Source: Mesodorylaimus sp. YZB2_4
Lineage: Eukaryota; Nematoda; Enoplea; Dorylaimida; Dorylaimidae
DNA length: 64,000 nt
NCBI GenBank assembly: GCA_030248295.1
Contig: JASANH010001643.1
Coordinates: 682,001 to 746,000 of the forward strand
Reading direction: 5' to 3'
In this document: positions 2,109 to 62,573 of the stretch, piece by piece
Layout: each line of letters begins with the position of its first letter
Position numbering within the stretch: position 1 is the stretch's first letter
Made by a program: the position numbers and the translations under genes
The notes under the pieces: generated by a model
The model's database searches: none
What the model was told of the DNA's origin: nothing
Seen by the model: the letters and a program-made list of their open reading frames with translations, nothing else

Positions 2109-4555
2109 ATGGATCGTCGAGGTGGTTATGGTAAACGAAGGGGCATACTTCCGAGGCAACGGCCAACCCTAGGCTCGTCGCCAGTTTCGATTCGACGTCG
2201 AGAGCATGCGGAATCATCGAGCGGCAATGAGGAACGTGGAACATCCGAAGGACTACGAGAGTCGTCTCCTCCTTTTTCCTCAATGGATCAGGCGGCTCAA
2301 GATCAGCCGAGACCAACTATGATCCTGATGAAACCCCAACGCTCAAGAAAGGTACGAACCAAGTTTGTAGGCAGGTTCATTTCAGCCATTTGCAAAAATC
2401 CGTTGCATTTTCACCATTTTTTGCATTTGATCATTGCACATTTAGAAACTTTCGATCTAGTTATTTCACGTAATCTTTTTGGAAAATTTAGAAAGCTTGC
2501 GTCTGCAATTGATAATATTTTTCTCTCTCTTATCTGTTGCACTTCACCTCTTCTTACGGTTGCGTTTATCTCAGAGGCCTCCCATAACTTCATTTTCACG
2601 TAACTATTCCATTTTTATAGCATGAGGAAGAGGAAGAAGAATGGCCGACGGTGGGCAAGCCAGTGCCCATCGTTTCCAGTCGCACGGGAACACCGGTTCG
2701 TCGAGTCGATTCTCCAGCAACAGTTCCAGCATCTTCGTCAAATGTAGAAGAGAGCAGTTATGATCGATACGACTGGTCTGCTGCTGCAGGCCGTGGATTT
2801 CGTCGTCCTCTTCTCATGAATCCTCGCGAATCTTCCACGTTGACAACTCATCTATCAGCACCGTCATCTGCGCCTTATCAAATTCAGCACAAAGCAGAGT
2901 CAGGTACCCAACTGGAACTTCATAAATAATAGATTTTAGATTTTAACTCGTTCTAGGACTGCGGGAAAGTTCGGGCGCAGGTGGCGCGAAACCTCTTCGA
3001 GCTGGCATTCGTTTGATCACGGAGGGAATGGAATGGTCTGAGACTGCCCTGGATGTAAGATCTACTCTACAACTTTCCACACGTTTACGATGACACCGGT
3101 TCTCTTTTAGCACCTTCAAGAGCAGTCTAATTTCCTTGTGGTTGGTATTCTCGGTCCGCAAGGAGTTGGCAAGTCCACGTTGCTTAGCATGATTGGTGGG
3201 AACGACCCCTTTGATATGTACAGGTATGGTGGTAACTTCGGCTACCCGGGCAATGTTTTATTAGTTCATTATACTGTACTGTAGGCAGTACATATTTCGC
3301 CCGGCTAGCAAGGAGTGCACGGAAACGGGTGGCCGGCAGACAGCTGGTGTGCAGTTTTACGTGAACGATAACCGTATTATGCTTTTGGATAGTCAGGTAT
3401 GTCGTACAGGATTACTTTTATATTGGTTTGTTCATCGCGTCTTGTTTAGCCCATTTTGAGCCACGCCGTTATGGAACAAATCAATCAGAGTGATCGTCGC
3501 TATAATTACGAGTATAGGATGACCGAGAACTGTATGGAGGTCGAGGTAAGTCGATCGATTTTCATTAAATCATTCCTGTCCATTAATTGATTCTTTTTCA
3601 GTCGTTGCAAATCGCTTCGTTCATGATGCAAGTTTGTCACGTTGTGATATTTTTGGTCGATTGGTTTGTGGATATTGATTTGCTGCGATTCGTTCAAACG
3701 GCTGAAATGTTGAAGCCTAGTACACCGATTTCGGAAAATCCCCAAGGCGGTGATCATTATCCTCATTTTGGTGAGTATCATTTACGTATACATCCTTTAC
3801 CCACGCTAGTCTGACCTAGATTATGTTCGCTTCAACCTCCCCTTGTGGATATGATGCGGCTTTTGTGATGTCCTTTTGCTTGTTGAGTTAGATTAGTAAG
3901 ATTCAATCAAAAACTTGAGTGCCCAGCGGGAATCGAACAACCAACCCTAGGGACCCTTTGTTTTTTAGTGTTTGTACAAAATCGGGCTAGGCGAGAAGAT
4001 TTTACTCTGCTTTCTTTGAAATCGAAGAGCAAGTTTTTGAATAAAGTATTTGATAAATCGTCGTTGCATTTGAAAGGTAAGTGCGTATTGACTTTTTACA
4101 ATCCTTGTCTTTGCAGTGCCTTGTTTCAGACGGAATTTCGCTGAAGAACTCTTCGTACGACGTTTATAACGAGCTGGGTGAAGAGTGCGGCTCGACGAAC
4201 CTTTTCCTGTTACCGGATATGAAACCTCGAGGATACAAGCCGGAAGGTCAGGTTTTGACTAATTTATGATATAATCCGGGTTTTTTTTATGGCAGCCCGA
4301 TTTCAGCCATAACAAGCTATAAAGGCATTCCTGATTTTGAAGTCCTTGTGCGTGATCTGAGGAATCAAATCTGGTCACTTCCTAGAACATCGTTCGGACC
4401 GAATATCCAGAATGAGAAAAGCTGGTGAGTCTGAGGTGGCTAGCCATTGATATGTTTTAGAACTTGGTTGTTTTAGGTTTCATTTGGCGGCGCGCACGTG
4501 GGATATGACTCGAAAATCGTTGCTGATATCTGAATATGGACGTATGTTGCCGTGA
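2109..4555 (+). CDS. SMG9: SMG9, nonsense-mediated mRNA decay factor (SMG1 complex)
   Basis: Eleven exons read through: 2109-2351, 2621-2903, 2957-3054, 3111-3223, 3285-3396, 3450-3545, 3602-3770, 3969-4076, 4130-4246, 4307-4424, 4477-4555, giving about 511 residues (human SMG9 is about 520). SMG9 binds SMG8 and the kinase SMG1 and controls UPF1 phosphorylation in nonsense-mediated decay. The N-terminus is R/G- and S-rich. The G-like domain has the P-loop GPQGVGKSTLL and a switch-like LLDSQPIL. The block VFVQNRARREDF and the C-terminus WFHLAARTWDMTRKS are family signatures. Intron phases agree throughout. The start is the ATG opening MDRRGGYGKRRG. A weak ATTAAA lies at 4599. The gene converges on HECTD2, with 120 bp between the stops. 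Confidence 0.95.
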
Positions 4556-4675
4556 CGTAATGGCTATGAGACACTGTTTCACATCGAGTGCGTTTTATAT
4601 TAAATGTAGTGAGGCATGTGAAATGGGCCCTTTTGGTAACTAGCATTGAATCATTTGACATAAAGGCCTGGTTCA

Positions 4676-7600
4676 TCACTCTAATCCGAACCCTTCTCCG
4701 TGCGCTAAGGCAATGGCTAATTTCTGTCTTAATAAACGCCGATCTTGATAATCTGGGAGAACCAATTGATTGAAGCAAGTGTGAGCCATTGGGAGCCTGA
4801 GAAGGGTGGAATGGGTTATGGGACTGGGCAAAGCGGATGCGGGCACTTACATGTCTCTGCAGTTGCCACTGCCACTAGCCGTCGTGGCCATTTTGGTAAT
4901 TTTGAACGACATTTCCTTCATGCCGCCGGCAGGTATTCGGTCAGTGCCCGTGGTGAATGTGAGCAAACGTTTCTGATGACGTATGGGCAGTTTGAGGACC
5001 AGATCCCAGAAGTATCGAATGGTCTTGTCATCCATTTTATAGCCGTCGTAACTGGTCACTTTCTTGAGGTCATTCATGTCAAAGTCGTGACTGCCGCACA
5101 CCAAAAGTTCAACTTCTTCGGCTCGGAGTAGCTGCCAAGAGTGCCAGGGTGAGGAGGGTCAAATAAGTCTAGTTGCAGCTTACCAACAACGCATTCGAAG
5201 CGCAAACTGAGTGAAATCCGAGATAAAAGGCTTTGAATTGGTGGAACACGGATCGATTCACAAACCACTCAACGTACAGTTGGACGTATTCTGAAATAAA
5301 GCGGGTTGGAAAACGGTGAACACATTTGGAAGAAGGTTGACTTTGTGGACTTTTCGAAGGGAAAATGGCTCACAGTTGCATGAAGAAAAGAATGATAAAC
5401 ATGAGCCCCGAGTGGGAATTGAACTCGCACAAAACGCTTGTGCACACTGGAGGGTGAACCTTACACGTGGTGATTTACCAGCCTGCGAGTCGAACAGTCG
5501 CCCGTAATTGCGCACCTGGCGTGAGGGGTAGACGCCTAACCAGGGTGGGTTAGGCGCGCAATTAGGATTACCAGTCATACCATCTGTGTGGACGAGTCAA
5601 GTACCTACCACTAGAGACACATACGAGTGCTAGACCATATTTCCTGAAAGTAAGCCAGGCTGGCTCTAATCGGGCAGGCCATGGGAAAGGGACCAATGTG
5701 AGGGCTCCCTTGTAACCTATTAGACCATGGATACCCTCAAAGCACTCAAGATTTAGAAATGCGAGATAACCTGACTGAACAAAAAACTGTCAGGTTCATA
5801 AGCATTGATAATACTAGGTGTTTATAAAATGTTAGAGACAATAATTAGCCGTATTTTTCGGTGTGGCACCCGAGGCTGTACACAGAGGGTAAAGTTTTGT
5901 GACCAAGATACCAAAACTGAAAATGAAAACTGAACTGCCACGTCAAAAGTTACAGCCAATTATGTTTTCTGGAACTCTATGAAGCCAAGGACGCTGAATC
6001 TATACCAGACCAAGGATCCCAGACCCCACACGGAGAAGCTACTGCATACTGTATGTGGCGGGCTCGCGTGAGATGTGCCAGGTACATGGTTCCCATGCCT
6101 GTTTCCATACTGTCATAATAAGCATGGACTATGCTCCCCAGCCTATTCAGTGTGCCTCTCCTAAGTCAGGGCCGGTACGAGACCGAGAGGGAGATCAAAG
6201 TCGAGTGTCCGATCTGGTTTGTAGGCATCGGTAGAGAATTGGTCTCGAGTCCTAGGTCTGAAGTGCTCTCTGAGCACTTCGGGCTGGTCCGTCAGAACCC
6301 CTATGCAGCTAATTCCAGAATTCGTGAGTCTACACCGCCTTCTTGGAGTGGGATAGTAAAACACGTTAAGAAGTGTCCATGGTCAGCCCTAGTCTATCCT
6401 AGGGCAAGTCAAGGACTTCAAAGTGTTTAGGCTTTCTTCGGAGCAGGATGGCACGTAGAAGGCAGTGTAGACCACTCGGCATTTTGGGCCCTGAGTGGTG
6501 CTTAAAATGCGTTTGGATGCAACCATCATAATTGCCTTTTGGTACTTTCCCAGGTCGTGGGCCCTTCGCCTCTTGTCAGTCAGTGAATGAGAGGTGCGCG
6601 TTCAATCTGCGTCAGGAATGACCTTATTCACAATAAGCGGAGGCTCGTCTATCAATAGGTCCTCTGCAAGGAGTCAGCAGCTAAGAGAGTCACCCGTCAG
6701 GGTGATGATTCAGACATGGGCCAGTTCGAAGACTTGGTAGGCTGCCCTGAGGTTTCGGTGTGGTGAAGAAACTGCACTGATCACTCCATCTAGTGTTATA
6801 CACCCACGCGTATCACACCATGTCTACTGTACTCCTGCACTGCGCTGTGCTCATGTTGAATGCAGGCCTGCAGACTCATCGTCAGTAGGCCGCCTGGGTG
6901 GTGTAGCGGTGAAAGGCGTCTGCCATAGTTTGCTTGCAGAGCTGGAAACCGATCGGCCCTGAGTTTAACTCTGGTTGTCTGGAGAGGCCTTATGGGGAGG
7001 GGCTCTCGAATCCGGCACCCCGCTTATGGGGAGGGCATGCTTCGATCACGGCCACGGGCTGGGTATGGTTGCCCCATGGGGTAACCGGCGACTTCGCGGG
7101 GTGGCGACCACAACGCACCCTTGCCTGGAATGCATCTTGGATTGACCCTAGTCGACGGCAAGATAGGATCAACTAACAAGCCCCTTCCCCGCGGGTAAAG
7201 AACCAAAAATCGACTTTCCCCTGGGACCACAAGGATGGGTCGAAAAAAAGACTCATTGTCAGTTAGGAGAGGGATTCTATCTTGTCGGGAATATCATAGG
7301 GTCATTTTGAGGGGGTTCTTTATAAGACCTATAATTTCTGCATTTCATGGTATTCACACACCGTGACCTCCATAAGATAGAGCCAGCCACACCCCAGCCA
7401 TGAATGACCAGCCTGCATGGCTGTCGGGAGATCCATACCTGCCCTGGCTGGGAAACGTCAACCCCTCTTTGGTCTCGACTATCTCCCGCCGCCTGGGTGC
7501 GCTGGTTACACATGGAACAGCTATGTTCTATGGTCAAGTGTGTACCTTCTCTATTCTCCGTGGTCACCGACATGTTCTTGCCATTCTCTCGCAGCTCCTC

Positions 7601-30575: not shown

Positions 30576-32675
30576 TTAATCCTCGCCTCCATCACACTCA
30601 TCGTCTTGATGACGGCATTGACGATATCGATTCCCCATCACTGACGCCACTCGGCACGCCCGATACGCCTGCTCTCGTTCCCGTATACCGCAATAAAGTA
30701 GCATTGATGAAACCAGGCCGAAGAGCTAAATGGAAAATAAAGTCTCTAAGAGTCCTTCAAAAAACCTAAATGCACTTACCTGCACAAAAGCCAGTACTAG
30801 CCCAACCACGCCCACGATATGCATGTGTTCCAGAATCCAGTCGCTAAATGCTTGATGGCAGCCCTACAAAAAAATGGCACAGATCTATCCACAGCAAAGC
30901 TACCCGCAGCTCCTTGCAAAAGATATCCCTTCCCCAACGTTTCAGCAACAACCATGGCGCCTTACTTGCTGAAACAGCATGTCAGGACGGGCCTGTTTGC
31001 CGCAATTGACCATAGCAGGACCACTGTTGACGAAAAAGGAAGGATCGCAGCAACTGTCGGGAACAAAATCGTTGTTTGGCCATTGCGCGTGTCGAAACCA
31101 ATCCTTGTAAGTATCCACGCCACAGCAACGGAACTGAAATGCAAAAATATACGGAGTGCATACATACAGGAGGAGAGATGCCGTTGCTTACCTGCTGCTG
31201 CAGATCATCCCACGTTATCCGTTGTCCATTGTTTCCTTTGGTATTATCGCTGACGTAACTGCTGTTTTTACGCATATGGTCATGCAGTTCGAATCGTACT
31301 AGCTCCGACACCTGAAACCAACCTATTTTAAGTACACTACTAGCCCCACTACCTGGCTTGGGCAGGCGAATTTCGGATCATAAGGCTGATAATGACCAGG
31401 AGCCTATACTACATTGATCAGAAGAGCGCAGATCACTGTGCATTTTAAGGGTACGTTATAAGTTTAAGGCAGGACAGACGTATGTACAGCACTTTACCTC
31501 ATCCCTGTACAACACGCCCAGTACGCCGGCAGTCGACTCCACCACGAAGACCAAGAGTACGAAGACGAAATACTAAAAGACAAACAGACGATAAAACTCA
31601 AACGGCATACGGAGAGTATAATATAACTGATGGACTAAAATGCACAGCGCGACCCCAATTGCCCGCATCCCAATGAATGCAGTCTAACCCGCGTCTACAA
31701 CGATCGAGTTCCACACCGTAGCGAGACTTCCGTGCCACCCCGACTCTGTCGCCAACACTAAACTGGGAGGCACCCGTAGTCTGACAGACGGCAAAATGAT
31801 TTACGCCTTTTCCCATTTTTAACGCGTGCCTCAGGCCGCATTGAAAAAGTGCGCTCGTAAAGCGGCCAAACGTAGACCGACCTCGCACCTACCATGCCCA
31901 CCCATAACTGCCCTATTGTACACACAGTACTTACCGTAATCAACAGGCATTTGCTCTCAATCCACGCGCCGCAGCAACCCACAAACCCAATGATTACCAC
32001 CGTAGCACCCGCGGCGATACATAGACCGGCCGCACTCAATACACCGTACGTGCTGGGCGATATCTGGAGGTACTCGGTCTTCACTACGTACAACCACACG
32101 CCAACGCCCAGTGCTCCCCAACCGACGATCTAAACAAAAAACGGTTTCATTTCGGTCGTTCATAACAGAAATGGGATGCCCGGAGGTCTGGCAGTAGGAT
32201 ACGAAAACGACTCGGTTTAGCATAGCACCAATCTAACATTACATCGAACAAGGTTGAACTGGCGGGCCTGGCACATTCATGCAAGATTATTGCTCCGGTC
32301 TCACTCAATAGCCCCGCTTAGAAGCTAGATTGACGACGAGACCCGAAAAATACGGACCTAACGTTTTTAGTTCTGTTCCACTTCCATTCAAGTATCAAGA
32401 AGGTCCACCTTATTTTGAAGACTACCTCCCGCTATTCACGTATGCACTATACTTCATCAAACCTGTTCCCATTCTCAATTGCTGTTTATTTGATGAGCAA
32501 GAAAACTTGCAACTCGTTCAGATAGAATACCTACGCTAAAATTAGCCACTTTTAAAGCACCCTGCCGTACTGTATGCACGGCCGCCACGGCCTATCTAGT
32601 TTTTCTTACCCAAAACAATACGTTAAAACAGAAGAATGCACATCGAGTGAACGAGTAGCCGATGTTGATGCTCAT
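30576..32675 (-). CDS. tetraspanin B
   Basis: Seven exons in phase: 32610-32675, 31935-32129, 31498-31572, 31192-31311, 30966-31133, 30780-30863, 30576-30725 (about 282 residues). Exon 1 gives MSINIGYSFTRCAFFCFNVL, the start of TM1. IIGFVGCCGAWIESKCLL follows TM2. The large loop has FRCCGVDTYKDWF, DSCCDP and NCG, then GCHQAFSDWI before TM4. The 50-residue C-terminal tail is rich in R, C and D and ends DDECDGGED. Tetraspanins organise membrane microdomains with integrins and other partners. It is not a recent duplicate of tetraspanin A: intron positions partly match but the loops differ. Confidence 0.9.
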
Positions 32676-33228: not shown

Positions 33229-33237
33229 GTTGGATAT

Positions 33238-34282
33238 GGGTCAGTCTAAAAGCCGCTCCCGCTCCTACCGCTCCCGCTCCTAAAAACTAAACCCCGCTCC
33301 CCGTACTTTCCCGCTCCCCAGCAGGAGCGGGTTTTAGTGATATAAGTAATTTTAGTAATTTTTTGTTTTAACGTTTATGGATAGAAATTTACGCGGTATT
33401 GTACGAAGCGTCATGTTAGGTAAGGTACTGTACTAAAACCAAAGAAAACGAATGTCTTCTTCTGGGTCGAAGTGGTCAATACGACAGCGGCAAGTTTCGC
33501 CTGATTAATCACATCATTGTGACAGATCCAGTCATTGCTGCCCAAGTCACTCGACGCGGACCATCGACTTACGACACATATGGCGATCCAATAGACATGA
33601 TACTCCAGCATTTCTCGCACATTTGGGTAATCGAATTCAACAATTCGTGTTCGAATCGCATATGCTCGGGTAAAGATCAGATCCATCGGCGCAGTCATTT
33701 CGCCTTGTCTCCTGGGGACTCCAGAAGCGGCGCTTTCGATATTGGCAGCTGCTTATCGCAGCTTGGCTCGCCTTTAGATGGATCGTCGTATGAAGAACGC
33801 CGAGTGGTTCCACTCAAGCGGATATCCCGAATCTCGAATGGTTCCGTTCAATAGTTCAACTTTGGCGAACTTACGACAACGACTTAGTTTTGTCTTGGCG
33901 ATTTACTTTATTAAACGAAAATGTCCATGATCTATGACAATTATCTCCATTTTGCATTTTTGTGATTTTAGAATTTGCTGTTTGCTTTGTCTTTGCTGTT
34001 GCCCAGGGTGTTTCCATGTCATGTCTAAAACTGAGGACGGGCTTTTTTTACTCTAGAACTTTACATAAGGAATGCCTTATTTTACGTTTCCATGTTGTTA
34101 TTTTAGAAGGAAACAATCTGCTGTTAATTAATTGATTATACAAAGGAGCGGGGTGGTGAGTCTAGGAGCGGGCCTGTTTAGCACGTGAGTATAGGGAGCG
34201 GTGTTTAGCTCGAGGAGCGGGAGCGGGGTTTAGTTTTCAGGAGCGGGAGCGGTAGGAGCGGGAGCGGCTTTTAGTCCGACCC
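33238..34282. mobile_element. non-autonomous TIR DNA transposon with perfect 9-bp target duplication
   Basis: The 1,045-bp element is flanked by GTTGGATAT at 33229-33237 and again at 34283-34291. Its ends are long inverted repeats of about 65 bp: GGGTCAGTCTAAAAGCCGCT on the left, and the reverse complement of the right end reads GGGTCGGACTAAAAGCCGCT. Both continue through repeated CGCTCCCGCTCC units. A 9-bp duplication and long TIRs fit Mutator-like elements, though hAT-like with 8 bp is possible. No transposase was seen. The interior (33440-33860) has a more balanced composition with an open frame at 33519-33854, unlike the AT-rich remainder. Confidence 0.85.
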
Positions 34283-34473
34283 GTTGGATATTCGGTAGAT
34301 TTGGATCAGAATTTTGGTTGGACGGATTAGATTTGGGATTTTTAAACACGATAAGTGTGGGTTCAGAAAATCGTAGCCTTTATTTTTGGTTTTGTCGAGC
34401 AAGGTATGTGTAGCCTGTATTTAGGCCTTGTTCAAAGGAGAGTGCGAGTGAATGTTCTCTGCTTTCAGGGAAA

Positions 34474-36529
34474 ATGCCGGATGGTACTGGGCCAGTCGTG
34501 GCCGGTGGTGGTGGAAATGCAGCGGCTGCTCCGAATCAGCAACCGCAGCAAGGAGGCGTGGACATGTGGTCGGTAATAAAGCAATTCGCCTTTCGGCTGT
34601 TCATTATTTATATGATCTCTTCGTTCATTCGCAATTGGCGTCAAGGTCCTACCGGGAGTCCAAGTAACGGCACGACGCCTTCGGAACCGGCTGCTCATCC
34701 AGGTCGAAATTTGTTTCAAAAACTCACTCCTTTAGACATATATGCCTACATTTCGGAGAAAGGGTGCGATAAGAATATGGATGGCGGACCGTTCAATGAT
34801 TTCAATAATACTGACGCTCTCTTTTGGAAATTGACTGACATTCCGTACGGCGATTGGACGGGTGGTCCTCACGGCGACGGGACCTACACGCGCAGTGGTA
34901 AGATACCGTGTAGCGAACGGGTCCAACAAAACAGCTCGTTATATTTGCACGTCTACGTGGTAAAAAATGGCAAATCTCCCGATCCCATGGCTTGGCCAAA
35001 GACTGAATACTCGAAACGTTTCACGATGCATCGATGCCGTCGACTTAACAAGTATAAGAAGAAACGCTATCAAAAAACGCAAAACTTGTTGACGGGAAAA
35101 ACTGAAGCGACAGCTGAGGAATTGGCGAAAGTGGAAACCGGTGTATCGCACGAAATATTGTCTCACTGGCACCCCAACCTGACTCTGAATCTAATCGATG
35201 ATCAAACAGCGTGGGCCAAGGGCGCCTTGCCACCTCCTTTAGACGAGTACGTAGAATTCGATCCTGTTTCTGGCGATTATTATCCCATATTCTTTTTCAA
35301 TGATTACTGGAATTTAGCCGTCGATTATCAGCCGATCAACACTACTGTTCAATCTTTGAACTTTTCTTTGACCTACAGTCCAATGTCGTTGTTCAAATGG
35401 CAGTTATACGCGGCTCAAACAATGCGGAACAAGTGGTCGTCGATATTAGGGGCGACTGGTGGCGAATTGTTCGAAGACTCGGACGAAGATCAAGACTCGC
35501 TCAAGCAAGCAATCCTGGATACGAATCCTTATTTGCTGGGTATGACCGTCGTCGTCTCCTTATTGCATACCATTTTCGAATTCCTGGCATTTAAGAACGA
35601 TATTCAGTTTTGGCGCAATCGAAAATCTTTGGAAGGCCTATCGGTTCGTTCCGTCTTGTTCAACGTTTTCACGTCTTTGATCGTCCTTCTATATATTTTG
35701 GATAACGAGACCAACTTCGTTGTCCGTGTCAGCGTCGGTATCGGTTTATTGATCGAGTTGTGGAAGATTCCGAAAGTCATGGACGTCAAATTGGATCGTG
35801 AACGAAAGATTTTTGGTATTATTCCTCGTCTTACGATCAAAGATAAGGGCTCATATGTTGAATCGTCGACCAAGATCTACGATATGATGGCGTTTAAATA
35901 TTTGTCCTGGGCTTTATTCCCATTGCTGGGCGGCTATGCTGTCTACTCGCTGCTTTATCAAGAGCATCGTGGTTGGTATTCGTGGGTATTAAGCATGCTG
36001 TACGGTTTCCTGCTGACTTTTGGTTTTATTATGATGACGCCACAATTATTTATCAACTACAAATTGAAGTCGGTGGCTCATCTACCGTGGCGGATGTTGA
36101 CGTACAAATTCCTGAACACATTTATCGATGATATTTTCGCTTTCGTTATCAAAATGCCCACTATGTGAGTATCGATTTTCTGGTTATAAATGTCGTGGTT
36201 TTTAATGATCCTGTGTTTTTAGGTATCGTCTGGGATGCTTCCGAGACGATATTGTCTTCTTGATCTACTTATACCAACGTTGGATTTACCGCGTCGATCC
36301 GACTCGAATGAACGAGTTTGGTACGACTGGTGAAATGGATGACGGGACGGCAGGGGCGGAGGAACAGCGAGCTTTGCAAGGAAACAATGAAGAAGCGAGT
36401 GGTTCTGCTGTGGAGCAGTCGGACGGTGCCGAAATGTCGACGGAAGAAGAAAAACAGTCGCCGTCGAAAGATGCGGATGCCAGGAAAAAGAAGAAACAAA
36501 AGAAAAAAGAGACGAAGAAGACGAAATAA
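34474..36529 (+). CDS. CLPTM1: CLPTM1, multipass ER/plasma membrane protein
   Basis: Two exons, 34474-36164 and 36223-36529 (about 665 residues). Almost all of the protein is in one long exon. The family limits surface delivery of GABA-A receptors, and the related CLPTM1L is a lipid scramblase. Evidence: an N-terminal hydrophobic anchor FAFRLFIIYMISSFIRNW, the luminal block LTPLDIYAYISEKGCD, and SLYLHVYVVKNGKSPDP. At least four helices follow residue 350, including MMTPQLFINYKLKSVAHLPW and DIVFLIYLYQRWIYRVDPTR. The C-terminal tail is acidic then strongly K-rich (DADARKKKKQKKKETKKTK), which could act as an ER-retrieval or lysine signal. CTTTCAG ends 5 nt before the ATG; a donor at 34405 allows a 5' UTR intron. 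Confidence 0.97.
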
Positions 36530-36818: not shown

Positions 36819-39800
36819 ATGGACGTGGAAGAGGCAGTCTTGTCCGACGCGCTGGTCGGTGCCGAAGTGGACGAGGTTGGCGAGAAGATTGGAGAAAATC
36901 GATACGCAAGTAGGTGCTGACAAGGGGACATTGAATGTGGGGGATGAGTACGGGGTGAGGTAGGACTGATGGCACTCGGACAGGTAGCGAGTTACGTTGA
37001 AAGCTGATACGGCTGCCCTTTCATTATTAGGGGGGGGGGGGAGGGCAAAGATTTGACGAGATTGGTTCACCTTTAGTTGTCCGTACGAGATACGAGTTCT
37101 GGAACGTAGTGGAGGAAGATGACGGATGCGGGTCGAGTGATTCGAGTGATGGAACGCTGGACGATGAAGGCGATCTCAAAGTCAGGAGGAGACCCAAATG
37201 TCGAGATTTTCTGGTGATAGGTATGTGAGTGAGCATATGGCAAGTTCTTGCATGGGCTGTTCTAGTGTTATCACCCGATATAAGGGATATGGAGGGGATT
37301 GACCAAGATAGGGAATCCTGTCTTAAAAAAATTTTGGGGGTTGGACCTCGTGCCGTCCCAGTTCCCCCCCCCCCCCCCGGGCCATCCAACCTGTTCTCCC
37401 TATAGCCGGCCAGCAGTCACGATATGGTAAGCGAGGCCGTGAGGTTACCAGCTCTCACGGCAGCTTCCCTCTGCGTGTCTCCACTGGAAGCACCTCCACA
37501 CGAAGGCATCCTGTGCCAGAACCAGCATCCCAGGATGATACTGGGCGAGAAGGGAGGGATCTCCCCGACTGGTGCTCGGGAACCTGTTCCATAATTCTCT
37601 ACTCCGTCCCTTGACGGTACCGGGTGAGTCGCCCAGAGCCAGGTGTGCAAGCGACGGACTTACTAAACTGCCGTCGAAGACTGGTTCCCATTCTGAGAAC
37701 AGGCTTACTAAACCTGGTCAGGGTTGCTGGCGCATGCAATGCGGGAGCAACGCCTACCAACTGAGCTACCGCGTTTCAGTCGGGATATGACATCCTGCCC
37801 ATCCTTATCTCTCATGGTGGGCATACATGCCGACGGTCTGAACTTTAGCCTATAATTGCGCAATCCCCCTGACAAAATTGGTGCGAAATCCCTAAATTTT
37901 GCTGTTTTGGTGCGCAATCCCTAAATTTTGCTGTTTTGTTGCGCAATCCCTAAATTTTGCTGTTTTTGGTGCGCAATCATTGAATTTTGTCACTTTTGGC
38001 TCGAAATCCCTAAATTTCGCTGTTTTTGATGCGCTATCACTGAATTTTGCCGTTTCTGGCTCAAAATCACCAAATTTCGCTGTTTTTTATTGAGCAGTCA
38101 CTGAATTTTGCCGGTTTTGGCTCAAAATCACTAAATTTCGCTGTTTTAGATGCGCAAGGGGCCATCCATAAAGGACGTCCACCAAAAAATGCGATTTTTC
38201 GACTCCTCCTCCCCCTATCCACACTTCATCCGTTTCGCTCGGACCCCCCTTAAAAATGGACGTCCACTTGAGCAGGGGACCCCCCCCCCCCCCCCCCCCC
38301 AAGGAAAATAGTCTCTTCGAAACAGCATTGCTCCCAGCATCGACTGATCCGCCGAAATGATGGGTCATTCAGTCTTCAGTTTGATTCGACTGCTGCATCA
38401 GCCGGACTGGGAACTAAAATTTTGCGCTCTCTTTTTGAAAATGTGTCCACATCCAATTTAAAACTTCTCTAATTTTCCTCCAAACTCAGAATTGAATCCC
38501 GCTTTAGGTGCAAGGTAGTGCTCCTGAGTTTTTGGAGTGGTTTGATGGACAGTGACAGCGAGGAAAGGAAATATAGGGCAGGCTGCTGGGAACCTTATCC
38601 ATAAAAATATTTCTTGAACGGATCACCCAGATCGAGATCGGGACTCACGTCGAGGGTCGGATCAGTCAGTGCTATAATTGGGCAACATCTCTGACCTCCC
38701 GATGGCCCCCTAGCGCCTGGAATCCATCGCCCTGGATGGGGAGGTCGGCCCGTGGTTGATGTTTCAGCCACAGATGTAGTCGCTCTCTCTCACAGTCAGA
38801 GTACTTGCCCAGCAAACCCCCTCTCCCACCCCTGCAGGACTTGGTTACCACGACACCAGATTGAGCGACAAAGCCACTGGCAGCACCACTAAAATCGTTT
38901 TATCCGCCTCAGAAAAAGAGAAGCCAAAAGATATGAAAAATGTTTGGGAAAACTGGAATATAATCGACCTGAGTCCTTGGATAGTCGTTTCATTTCATGA
39001 TTTCAATATTGGTAATTTTACTCGTATCTCTAGCGTTAACATTACGATGATTGCGATAATTTTCCGAGATAACCCGCCGATTTTGTGAAGTGTACGTCCA
39101 CTTGGCGGCAGCCTACCCCCTCCTCCATCCATTTCCGTCCACTTTCCGCTCACCCCCACCCTTCCCCCTAGGGTAGACGTCCTTTATGGATGGCTCCCGA
39201 TCTCTAAACTTTACCATTTTTCGCTCAAAATGACTGAATTCCGCTGTTTTTGATGCGCAATCGCTGAGTTTTGCCATTTTTGGCTCAAAATCACAAAATT
39301 TCGCTGTCTTCGATGCGCAGTCACCGAAGTTCGTAATTTCTTGGTGAACCTGTGCGGTTCATTTTTACTACAGTCATTACGGAAGCACGTGATTACCACG
39401 CGTTACCAGTAAACAGTAACAATTGCGCAGCGGAGGCGAAAGCACCTTCAACGAATGATACGCACCAGAGCAGGCAAAAGCTGGAATAGACTGCGCAAAA
39501 TTTGCTTATGCGCGCAGAATGAAGGGGAATTTAAAAAAAAATCTTCTCAGCCGCGACTGCGCAATCCCCCGCCTTTTTTTCAAAATTTTCAAAAATTTTG
39601 AAGGTGAGCCTATAATGATTACAGGCTATTATAGGGTGTCGGCATGTATGATGGTGGGGGGGGGGGGGGTCAGAGAGTGACCGACAGAGTCTTTTGACCT
39701 AATTGATGCCTGAAACATCACCCTGACAGGTAACATGCTAAGTTGCTTGCTCCAGCAGAGGATCGATTGTCAACCTGATTTCTACAGTGAGTAGGGGATC

Positions 39801-60151: not shown

Positions 60152-62573
60152 TCACCGTAATACTATGCGCATATCATACTTGGTCAACAGTTCAGAAGGG
60201 AGACATTCACGCACAAGCAGTTGTAGATCTCGAGCTGCTTCCCTCGTCATTGAGTAGTCGATGGCTTGCCATACGAATCGAAAGCATAAACTGATCCGTA
60301 TATCCTCGGAGTTTATGGGGTCTTGTTGGCGGCACGAGTACTCTGGCAGGGCGGTGATTCTCTTCACAAGACCTCTCGACATTGTTCGCACAGTGTCGAT
60401 GAAGATACTGGCTTGGAATGCCTGGCATATCCAGAAGGCGATGTCGTGGACGAAGTAGGGGCGTAACAGATGCAGGTGATCGGTGCTCGGTTCAGGTTTC
60501 AAGCGATCGATTGTTGAAGGCGAGGCTGAATCGATGGCCCGTTCGAATATTAGTGTTTCTGAATTTTCAATGTGAAATCGACGAGAGCTGTTTCTGAAAA
60601 GTAAACCACTGCAGATAAGACAAGTTTAATAATGTGGGGTGGGCTATGCTGATGATGAGTCTTGGTGCGACTTTCGGAGAGGCCTGGCTCGTTCTTGCAA
60701 GTTGAGTTAGGGTCGTACTGGCTGTCGCCCACAGTGAAATTCAGTCAATGCACATTCATACAGTAGACAGGTACGCATTTTTTAATTTTTAGGTCGGGGT
60801 CTGTGCCGCCCCAGTTCCCCACGGGACTTCCAACACGTTCTGCCAATAGCCGGCCAGCAGTCATGATATGACTCGCTGCAGCTTTTCTCTGTGTGTCTCC
60901 ACTACTGTAGGAGCACCTCTACACGAGACATCCTGCGCCAGCACTTCCTTCACGACTGGTGTTACAGAACCAGTTTCCTGATTCTCTACTCGTTCGGCGT
61001 CCGCCACTTGACCGCACGGGGTGAGTGGCCCAGAGACAGGTGTGCAAGGGCAGCGACGGACTTACTAAAGTGCCGTCCTCAGCCAGAATAGAACTGTGGT
61101 AAGGTCAGGGTTGCTGGCCCAAGCAACGCGGGACCAACGCCTTAACCAACTAAGCCACCGCGGCTCCCATAGGCACGCACTTGCCATCGCCTCGTGCCCA
61201 TCCGCCATGCCTCATGGGACCTACTGTACCACAAAAGGCTTTAGAAAGACGTACTGGAAGGTAGTGAAGCCCATGTCCTACAGTTATTGAGAGGCCTATG
61301 AAACCCCTCGGCAGGCCCAGGCCCGTCTTTACAATTTGATATGCCCTACTCCTTCCTGTGGTGTGGCCTATGATATTGTAAATGGTGGACATTAACATGG
61401 TGATTGAAGCTGTGTCAGCAAGACACAAAGCAGGAGACTCTAATTACTAATGGCACGACCCATCCAGAGCACACCGCTTACTTGTATCCTGCACATCGAT
61501 ATCCATACCCGAACCACTCGTCTGCGCGGAAGGGCTTCCGGTCAGCTAGTACAAATTGTCCGCTCGCTGCTAGGTACAGTGGCTGCCAACTGTCCATATC
61601 GTGGGCAGGAAGTGAAGTTGCGTCACTCAACTCACAATTAGTCACGCGCTCCAATCCGCTTTGGCCGCACGCAAGTGTCAGATAGAAACGTCCGCCCGCA
61701 CTCAAGACGGTGCTGCTTCTAAAAATAAGACTTGGAACTAGCTCAACTTTGAGTACAGGCAGAACACTTGCGCTGTAAACACTCCTAGGAGCAATTGTCG
61801 GCTTTTACGCAAGTTAGTTTTTCCACCAACGTGAGGAAAATTGAAAATTATGTGATCGAACTGTTGCACGTTGTCTTGCCCCACAAGTGCCTTCAGGCAG
61901 GTGGCGTCGACACCATAGAGTAGCTTGGTTCCTAAAAAGTCCGAAAAAGGATTTGAGGAGTGGATTCCTAGAACAGTAGAGAACTGTCTTGAAGGCTCGA
62001 GCAATGGGTAGCGATTCAGTCTATGCTGCGAGGCAAGGTCCACTCAGGTTCAATCCCCAGTGGCGGCTGTCAAGCCCCTCATCTTCTCTAACGAATAAAC
62101 AGTTATTTTAACAATTTTTTAAACTGGACTAGGGAGCGAAGTTCTTTCCAGCCACCTCACTCACCCCAGCATCGACTGATCTGACCTTGAGCCTGAATCC
62201 TGAGCCGACCTGACCAAATATAAGATCAGCACAGAAGGGATGTCAAACTGGCGCAATGGCCACCCAAAACTGTTCATCCTCAAAGGGACACAGGAGAACC
62301 AACCAGAGCCCGTCGGATCGGCAAAGATTTTAGGGGCCGACCCAACCCTCGGATCAGTCAATGCTGGCACTCACCTCGGCTTTCCAGCTCTTCCACATGC
62401 TTCTCACATTCCGAATATCGATCCAACAATTCCGCTTTCGTCTCTAGAACGCTCGCTATTACTTGAACATCCGATCCCACCTTCGCACAATTCAATCGTC
62501 GACAAAATGCGTCAGTGAATGAAAAATTGCCATCTCCCAGAATCAGAACAGTGCCACTCACGATTTCTTCCAT
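60152..62573 (-). CDS. FDXACB1: FDXACB1-like: BMT5-type methyltransferase fused to an FDX-ACB domain
   Basis: Four exons: 62375-62573, 61772-61931, 61482-61718, 60152-60593 (about 345 residues). The N-terminal half is the BMT5/DUF2431 Rossmann domain: GTVLILGDGNFSFTDAF, VIASVLETKAELLDRY, GVDATCLK, FDHIIFNFPHVGGKTNLRKS, then FYLTLACGQSG and DSWQPLYLA. In fungi the family methylates uridine-2634 of 25S rRNA. The C-terminal half is a ferredoxin-fold anticodon-binding domain as at the end of PheRS: RPYFVHDIAFWI, DTVRTMSRGLVKRITALPEY, SLCFRFVWQAIDYSMTREAA. The second intron is GC-AG. The ATG is 4 nt after TTATTCTAG. The protein is shorter than vertebrate FDXACB1 because the middle tRNA-synthetase-like portion is reduced. 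Confidence 0.92.
60785..61168 (-). repeat. tRNA-headed SINE, family A (minus orientation)
   Basis: On the minus strand the head is GCCGCGGTGGCTTAGTTGGT followed by TAAGGCGTTGGTCCCGCG. The body and tail are shared with 37321-37780: CTTTAGTAAGTCCGTCG, GCAGGATGTCTCGTGTAGAG, GTGGAGACACACAGAGA, GACTGCTGGCCGGCTATTGG. It ends in AAAAATTAAAAAAT at 60777-60790. It lies in the FDXACB1 intron 60594-61481, in the same orientation as the gene. Confidence 0.8.
62005..62085 (+). repeat. tRNA-derived fragment
   Basis: TGGGTAGCGATTCAGTCTAT followed at tRNA spacing by the B-box GGTTCAATCCCC. The stems are imperfect. It lies in FDXACB1 intron 61932-62374. Confidence 0.4.

Follow-up and report, generated by a model that had tools for sequence, protein, structure and literature searches.

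A non-autonomous, probably Mutator-like transposon of Mesodorylaimus whose interior appears to be left over from longer relatives

Background

Mutator-like elements (MULEs) are transposons with long terminal inverted repeats (TIRs), often accompanied by subterminal repeats. In Pack-MULEs, the interior derives from a host gene located elsewhere in the genome and is foreign to the transposon family. The designation 'Ovarian Tumour Gene', under which a gene of one cnidarian MULE is listed, refers to a cysteine-peptidase type.

Across eukaryotes, MULEs are described as having duplications of 8-11 bp, variable TIRs and, occasionally, extra open reading frames (PMC6446971). One animal element, Muta1 of Aedes aegypti, is placed with the Phantom MULEs (PMC6446971). 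Muta1 has subterminal 12-bp tandem repeats and duplications of 8-9 bp, and 110 of 171 insertions are located in genes or at most 5 kb from them (PMC5225508). Rehavkus elements combine a PHD finger in the transposase with a minisatellite before the 3' TIR, and the cnidarian element MuDR-6_HM is listed in Table 1 of the same survey with an 'Ovarian Tumour Gene' (PMC6446971). Two tardigrade repeat libraries contain both MULE and Zisupton elements (PMC11071193).

In this report, we describe an element from Mesodorylaimus sp. YZB2_4, located in a 64-kb stretch of contig JASANH010001643.1 (C20; positions 682001-746000), which we call the window. Searches covered the 145-Mb assembly of 1,067 contigs; the best candidates were scored, and copy counts are therefore lower bounds. 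We conclude that this is very probably a non-autonomous element, itself probably a MULE, that was formed by internal deletions and moved in trans to at least eight sites, including one upstream of a CLPTM1-family gene.

Results and discussion

Ends, duplications and base composition

The features of the locus are collected in Table 1. A first-pass annotation of the window had described a TIR transposon with intact ends, perfect 9-bp flanking duplications and TIRs of about 65 bp built from repeated units, and each part of this description held. The duplicated sequence, GTTGGATAT, occurs exactly twice in the window, at the two borders of the element. In 100 shuffled windows, its mean count was 0.37, and 5 of the 100 contained it at least twice, so the pair by itself is weak evidence; support for a target-site duplication comes from its exact position at both TIR ends and from the duplications that flank other copies. 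All five occurrences of the unit CCGCTCCCGCTCC in the window fall within the element, and the unit was absent from all 100 shuffles.

Table 1. Features of the element and of its neighbor (positions in the window)
Feature	Positions	Strand	Evidence or remark
Left target-site duplication GTTGGATAT	33229..33237	+	Exact 9-mer match
Right target-site duplication GTTGGATAT	34283..34291	+	Exact 9-mer match
Non-autonomous TIR transposon, 1,045 bp	33238..34282	.	Eight near-full copies at different sites, each with an 8-9 bp duplication
Left TIR, 64 bp, starting GGGTC	33238..33301	+	61/64 identity to right arm
Right TIR, 64 bp	34219..34282	-	61/64 identity to left arm
Two tandem 15-bp units CCGCTCCCGCTCCTA inside left TIR	33253..33282	+	
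Three CCGCTCCCGCTCC units at or beside right TIR	34213..34267	-	
5' end common to longer and other members	33238..33448 (element 1-211)	+	C24 98% over 31-211; C157 95% over 1-109
Putative remnant exon of peptidase-like gene, joined to the 5' end	33446..33727 (element 209-490)	+	C24 98%, C13 96% DNA identity over parts; 36% amino acid identity to C607/C813
Putative remnant of second exon	33728..33786 (element 491-549)	+	Preceded in C13 by an apparent GT...AG intron; intron ends placed by eye
Putative last exon remnant with parental stop codon (frame 33778-33930)	33787..33930	+	Counterpart of element 549/554 in C157 is element 1780/2125; reading frame differs from that of the 144-codon ORF
144-codon stop-to-stop frame across the joints	33420..33854	+	Probably no functional gene
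Host neighbor, CLPTM1-family gene	34474..36168	+	PF05602, E 4.3e-148

These ends resemble those of Muta1 in the 8-9 bp duplications and in the tandem units (15 bp here, 12 bp in Muta1), and in both systems derivatives are present in several near-identical copies; they differ in the TIR, which is 64 bp here and longer than 100 bp in 12 of the 14 Aedes families (PMC5225508). A TIR of this length is short among MULEs. The 9-bp duplication also recalls Rehavkus, and the TIR length is within the range given for that group (PMC6446971). In contrast to Rehavkus, no minisatellite was found before the 3' TIR, beyond short tandem units at 34194-34253 detected in a repeat scan of the element.

The interval 33440-33860 had been singled out for its different composition. 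Its G+C content is 0.49; the rest of the interior has 0.35, and 4 kb of flanking sequence has 0.45. It is therefore compositionally distinct inside the element, as claimed, yet near the genomic background.

Copies elsewhere in the genome

The first-pass annotation had recommended a genome search for further copies, and a whole-element search recovered at least seven that are near full length (C333, C481, C133, C139, C116, C14 and C41). Pairwise substitutions among the eight near-full copies, that of the window included, amount to 0-2.3%. The C14 and C116 copies are identical across 1,102 bp, and the closest copy found to the window element differs from it at 7 of 1,045 bases. An extra 57 bp is present in C14, C116 and C41 and absent from the other five copies; it accounts for the 92% identity at which C14 and C116 were reported in the genome search.

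Ten elements have both ends, namely, the eight copies together with C13 and C708. Their flanking duplications match at 9 of 9 positions in seven cases and at 8 of 9 in two, and that of C41 is 8 bp long. The best of 90 control pairs, each combining left and right borders of different elements, matched at 5 of 9. Near-identical copies with duplications at different sites indicate that the sequence is mobile, recent and multi-copy. A fairly recent insertion at the window locus, which had also been proposed at the outset, is thus supported. A search of the assembly for an empty allele, using the flanks joined with one copy of the duplication, matched the window locus alone, in two pieces.

In an alignment of the eight copies, the joints at element positions 210 and 490/491 are free of indel differences in every copy, and C41 alone lacks three bases (545-547) close to the last joint. 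The uniformity of the first two joints suggests that all eight near-full copies probably descend from a single deleted founder.

On C255, a fragment of the family is present twice in inverted orientation (L044:1394-1873 and 4270-4749), with about 2.4 kb between the copies, in a foldback-like arrangement.

Origin of the interior

A DNA search of the genome with 33440-33800 (E up to 10) returned 14 matches: the eight copies, C24, C13 (two pieces), C157, C53 and C96. Thirteen of these lie within elements or remnants bearing family ends, with at least one such end in each of C24, C13, C157 and C96. The remaining match, C53, is a 195-bp sequence that is 88% identical to C157 over both exon and intron-side positions and has no recognized ends; we interpret it as a probable fragment. 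Among the 14 matches, we observed no intact donor gene.

Longer members keep more of the interior gene, in identical order and on the same strand. C24 has the left end and about 260 bp of additional peptidase-like region, and element positions 209-377 match it at 98% after about 350 bp that is absent from the window element. In C13, both ends are present with a 9/9 duplication, and one joint has an apparent intron (GTAAG...TTTTAG), which is flanked by sequence corresponding to element 363-490 on one side (96%) and to 491-551 on the other (95%). Element positions 554-1045 match the 3' end of C13 and, up to 1015, the 3' end of C157 (80%); the stretch that precedes these matches in the longer members is absent from the window element. 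On these alignments, the interior appears to be the leftover of a second, peptidase-like coding region of longer relatives, and not of the transposase itself.

Because the apparent C13 intron falls at 33727/33728, precise loss of an intron there through an RNA copy was also considered. By eye, however, the window element has additionally lost six exon bases that follow the intron, and ordinary deletion at element 490/491 therefore fits better than clean intron loss.

The annotation had suggested that the interior would fit a Pack-MULE-like element that acquired host exon sequence. On this reading, the window copy or its recent founder captured a host exon at 33440-33860. Such a reading is attractive in that MULE-like ends surround sequence that is coding-like, has a higher G+C content than the rest of the element and gives no match to a transposase domain; the C53 fragment, which lacks family ends, might be a piece of the host. 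Host fragments do occur in animal MULE derivatives: for Muta1, about 20% of the derivatives show alignment to genes of the host (PMC5225508). Nevertheless, we regard recent host capture as very improbable here. Unlike in Pack-MULEs, the near-full copies are alike in sharing this interior, a host donor was not found among the 14 DNA matches, and parts of the interior gene, apparent intron included, recur in C24, C13 and C157, the last of which joins them to a transposase fragment. The annotation had itself named an interior shared by all copies, or one matching transposase remnants, as counting against capture. In substance, both hold for the copies and longer members found, although the interior belongs to the second region and not to the transposase itself. 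With 13 of the 14 matches in elements or remnants with family ends, capture from the host is not supported, and we have abandoned that interpretation in favor of inheritance from longer members.

Interiors differ across the wider TIR family, as is evident from C708 (L045:1341-2231). This element has family-type ends and is one of the ten compared at both ends, but its interior is different: about 680 bp of it is also found on C83 (92%; C83:283179-283844), and parts are found on C289, C888, C614 and C762. Gene capture may have taken place elsewhere in the wider family.

The 144-codon frame

An open frame in the interior had been noted, and the frame is indeed present (Table 1). It is open in all eight near-full copies, with lengths of 142-155 codons, as might be expected if the element now encoded a functional small protein. 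Other properties argue against such a protein, to which we give hardly any credence. Changes in the frame among the eight copies comprise 7 synonymous and 14 non-synonymous substitutions, and the non-synonymous share (14/21 = 0.67, from a small sample) is close to the 0.74 expected without selection. Variable columns are no scarcer inside the frame (20/432) than outside it (23/613), and the frame departs from the parental reading frame past the last joint. The open frame shows no sign of selection and is most likely not a gene.

Transposase of longer members and superfamily assignment

The 2.66-kb member on C157 (L031), the ends of which are related to those of the window element, contains a transposase-like fragment that is broken by a stop, and the 3' portion of the peptidase-like region lies shortly beyond it. 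The fragment itself had no match in Pfam. In a protein search of the genome, its frame matched places on C81, C101, C453, C25, C550 and, weakly, C540; identity to C81 is 41% over query residues 5-95, with one internal stop (E 8.8e-22). The C81 frame in turn aligns with positions 3-97 of the 99 of the MULE transposase model PF10551 (E 0.0085; 16.9 bits, below the Pfam cut-off of 27.6) and also matches DDE_Tnp_IS66 (E 0.018). The C550 frame aligns with PF10551 over nearly its whole length (E 0.21; 12.5 bits, below the same cut-off), and here G-alpha (E 0.052) and DDE_Tnp_IS66 (E 0.11) score better, at chance-level E values, which places MULE third.

PF10551 was scored at no fewer than 150 places in the genome, from 224 candidates, and MULE transposases are therefore plentiful in it. 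None of the seven C157-like places is among the 150 PF10551 places listed. Moreover, an intact parent with these ends was not found in the assembly; this family therefore differs from Muta1 both in lacking, among the sequences found, an intact transposase copy with the same ends and in drawing its interior from what is apparently the family's second gene. Two features of MULEs are present, namely, a duplication of 8-9 bp and 64-bp TIRs with tandem 15-bp units. From this architecture and the sub-threshold matches, the family is most likely Mutator-like.

The N-termini of the transposases were compared with the CG-1 domain. In two of five relatives, PF03859 (CG-1) matched the N-terminus below the cut-off, with E values of 0.025-0.028 (L031:2698-3135 and L078:2197-2415), and hhalign of the N-terminus with the genome's own CG-1 exon gave a probability of 30%. 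A genome search with PF03859 (E up to 10) recovered, besides the exon itself (E 1.1e-24), a single match at chance level (C20:713019, E 1.62), and no transposase place. The N-terminal profile had no match in the PDB, and none of the papers searched joins the CG-1 domain with a Mutator transposase.

The peptidase-like gene and a link to KDZ elements

The second coding region, best seen in C24, presumably encodes a cysteine peptidase, to judge from USP-like motifs. Its C24 version has 34% identity to a protein on C813 (E 2.1e-18), and the window frame has 36% identity to the homologous protein on C813 and C607. Neither the window frame nor the C813 protein had a match in Pfam or NCBIfam. The N-terminus of the C813 protein is a PHD finger (PDB 4l7x, E 1.1e-6). 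A PHD finger is also a feature of Rehavkus; here, it was seen in the related C813 protein. On C607, the homologous gene adjoins a frame that matches KDZ (PF18758, E 5.6e-6; 26.7 bits, just above the cut-off of 26.6). A frame similar in sequence to this one lies on C813. In both places, the KDZ-type frame is on the + strand and the peptidase-like gene is on the - strand (L069:2714-5489 on C607, L070:4144-5538 on C813).

Also on C607, at L069:6885-7581, a type B DNA polymerase model matches weakly (PF03175, E 0.0035, below the cut-off) next to a frame with no match, possibly a Polinton-type remnant.

The existence of these homologues bears on where the longer members obtained the region. An earlier family member, long before the window copy arose, may have taken it from the host or from another transposon, such that the window element inherited scraps. 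We consider the chances of this to be about even. In its favor are the protein on C813 and C607, with a PHD finger in one case and a KDZ frame alongside in the other, a further short match on C439 (85%), and the listing of MuDR-6_HM with an 'Ovarian Tumour Gene'. However, the C607 and C813 proteins are 93-96% identical and may count as one case. The likeness to MuDR-6_HM is one of a listed gene name (PMC6446971), and the peptidase label of our sequence comes from USP-like motifs. An acquisition of this kind would add to our explanation of the window element by internal deletion and is compatible with it.

A broader and rather doubtful idea has two parts. First, an accessory gene of the PHD/cysteine-peptidase-like type would have moved between the MULE and KDZ superfamilies in one animal lineage. 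Second, the DNA-binding domain of the MULE-like transposases in this genome would be a relative of CG-1, the domain found in CAMTA transcription factors, so that CAMTA's domain and these transposons may share an origin.

Genomic setting

The element lies upstream of the CLPTM1-family gene, the ATG of which is 191 bp beyond the element end, and thus sits in the 5' flank or a 5' intron of that gene. Insertion within genes or close to them is a described tendency of MULEs (PMC6446971).

Three other features of the window were recorded. To the left of the element, the neighboring gene is marked by a frame on the - strand (31761-32129) that matches Tetraspanin (PF00335, E 7.6e-11). A degenerate tandem array with 30/60-bp periods occupies 37878-38157, and about 1.1 kb from it a related block occupies 39191-39370. 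Finally, two short pairs of repeats (37373-37755 and 60817-61142; 85% and 90% similarity), separated by approximately 23.4 kb, are perhaps another transposon.

Proposed history of the element

The events that we favor can be outlined as follows. Longer family members, perhaps going back to a single full-length parent, would have carried a transposase gene together with the peptidase-like coding region. An ancestor would then have undergone internal deletions that spared the ends and fused pieces of the second region. With its ends intact, the deleted form could have been mobilized by transposase supplied in trans, and by this route would have reached at least eight sites, one of them upstream of the CLPTM1 gene.

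Conclusions

Finding coding-like sequence between the ends of a transposon does not prove that a gene was captured; in this family, the genome-wide copies and the longer relatives suggest that the interior was inherited by way of deletion. The peptidase-like gene found alongside two transposon superfamilies is a lead worth keeping. It is so far a sketch, but if true, the association of one accessory gene with two superfamilies would bear on how transposons gain helper functions.
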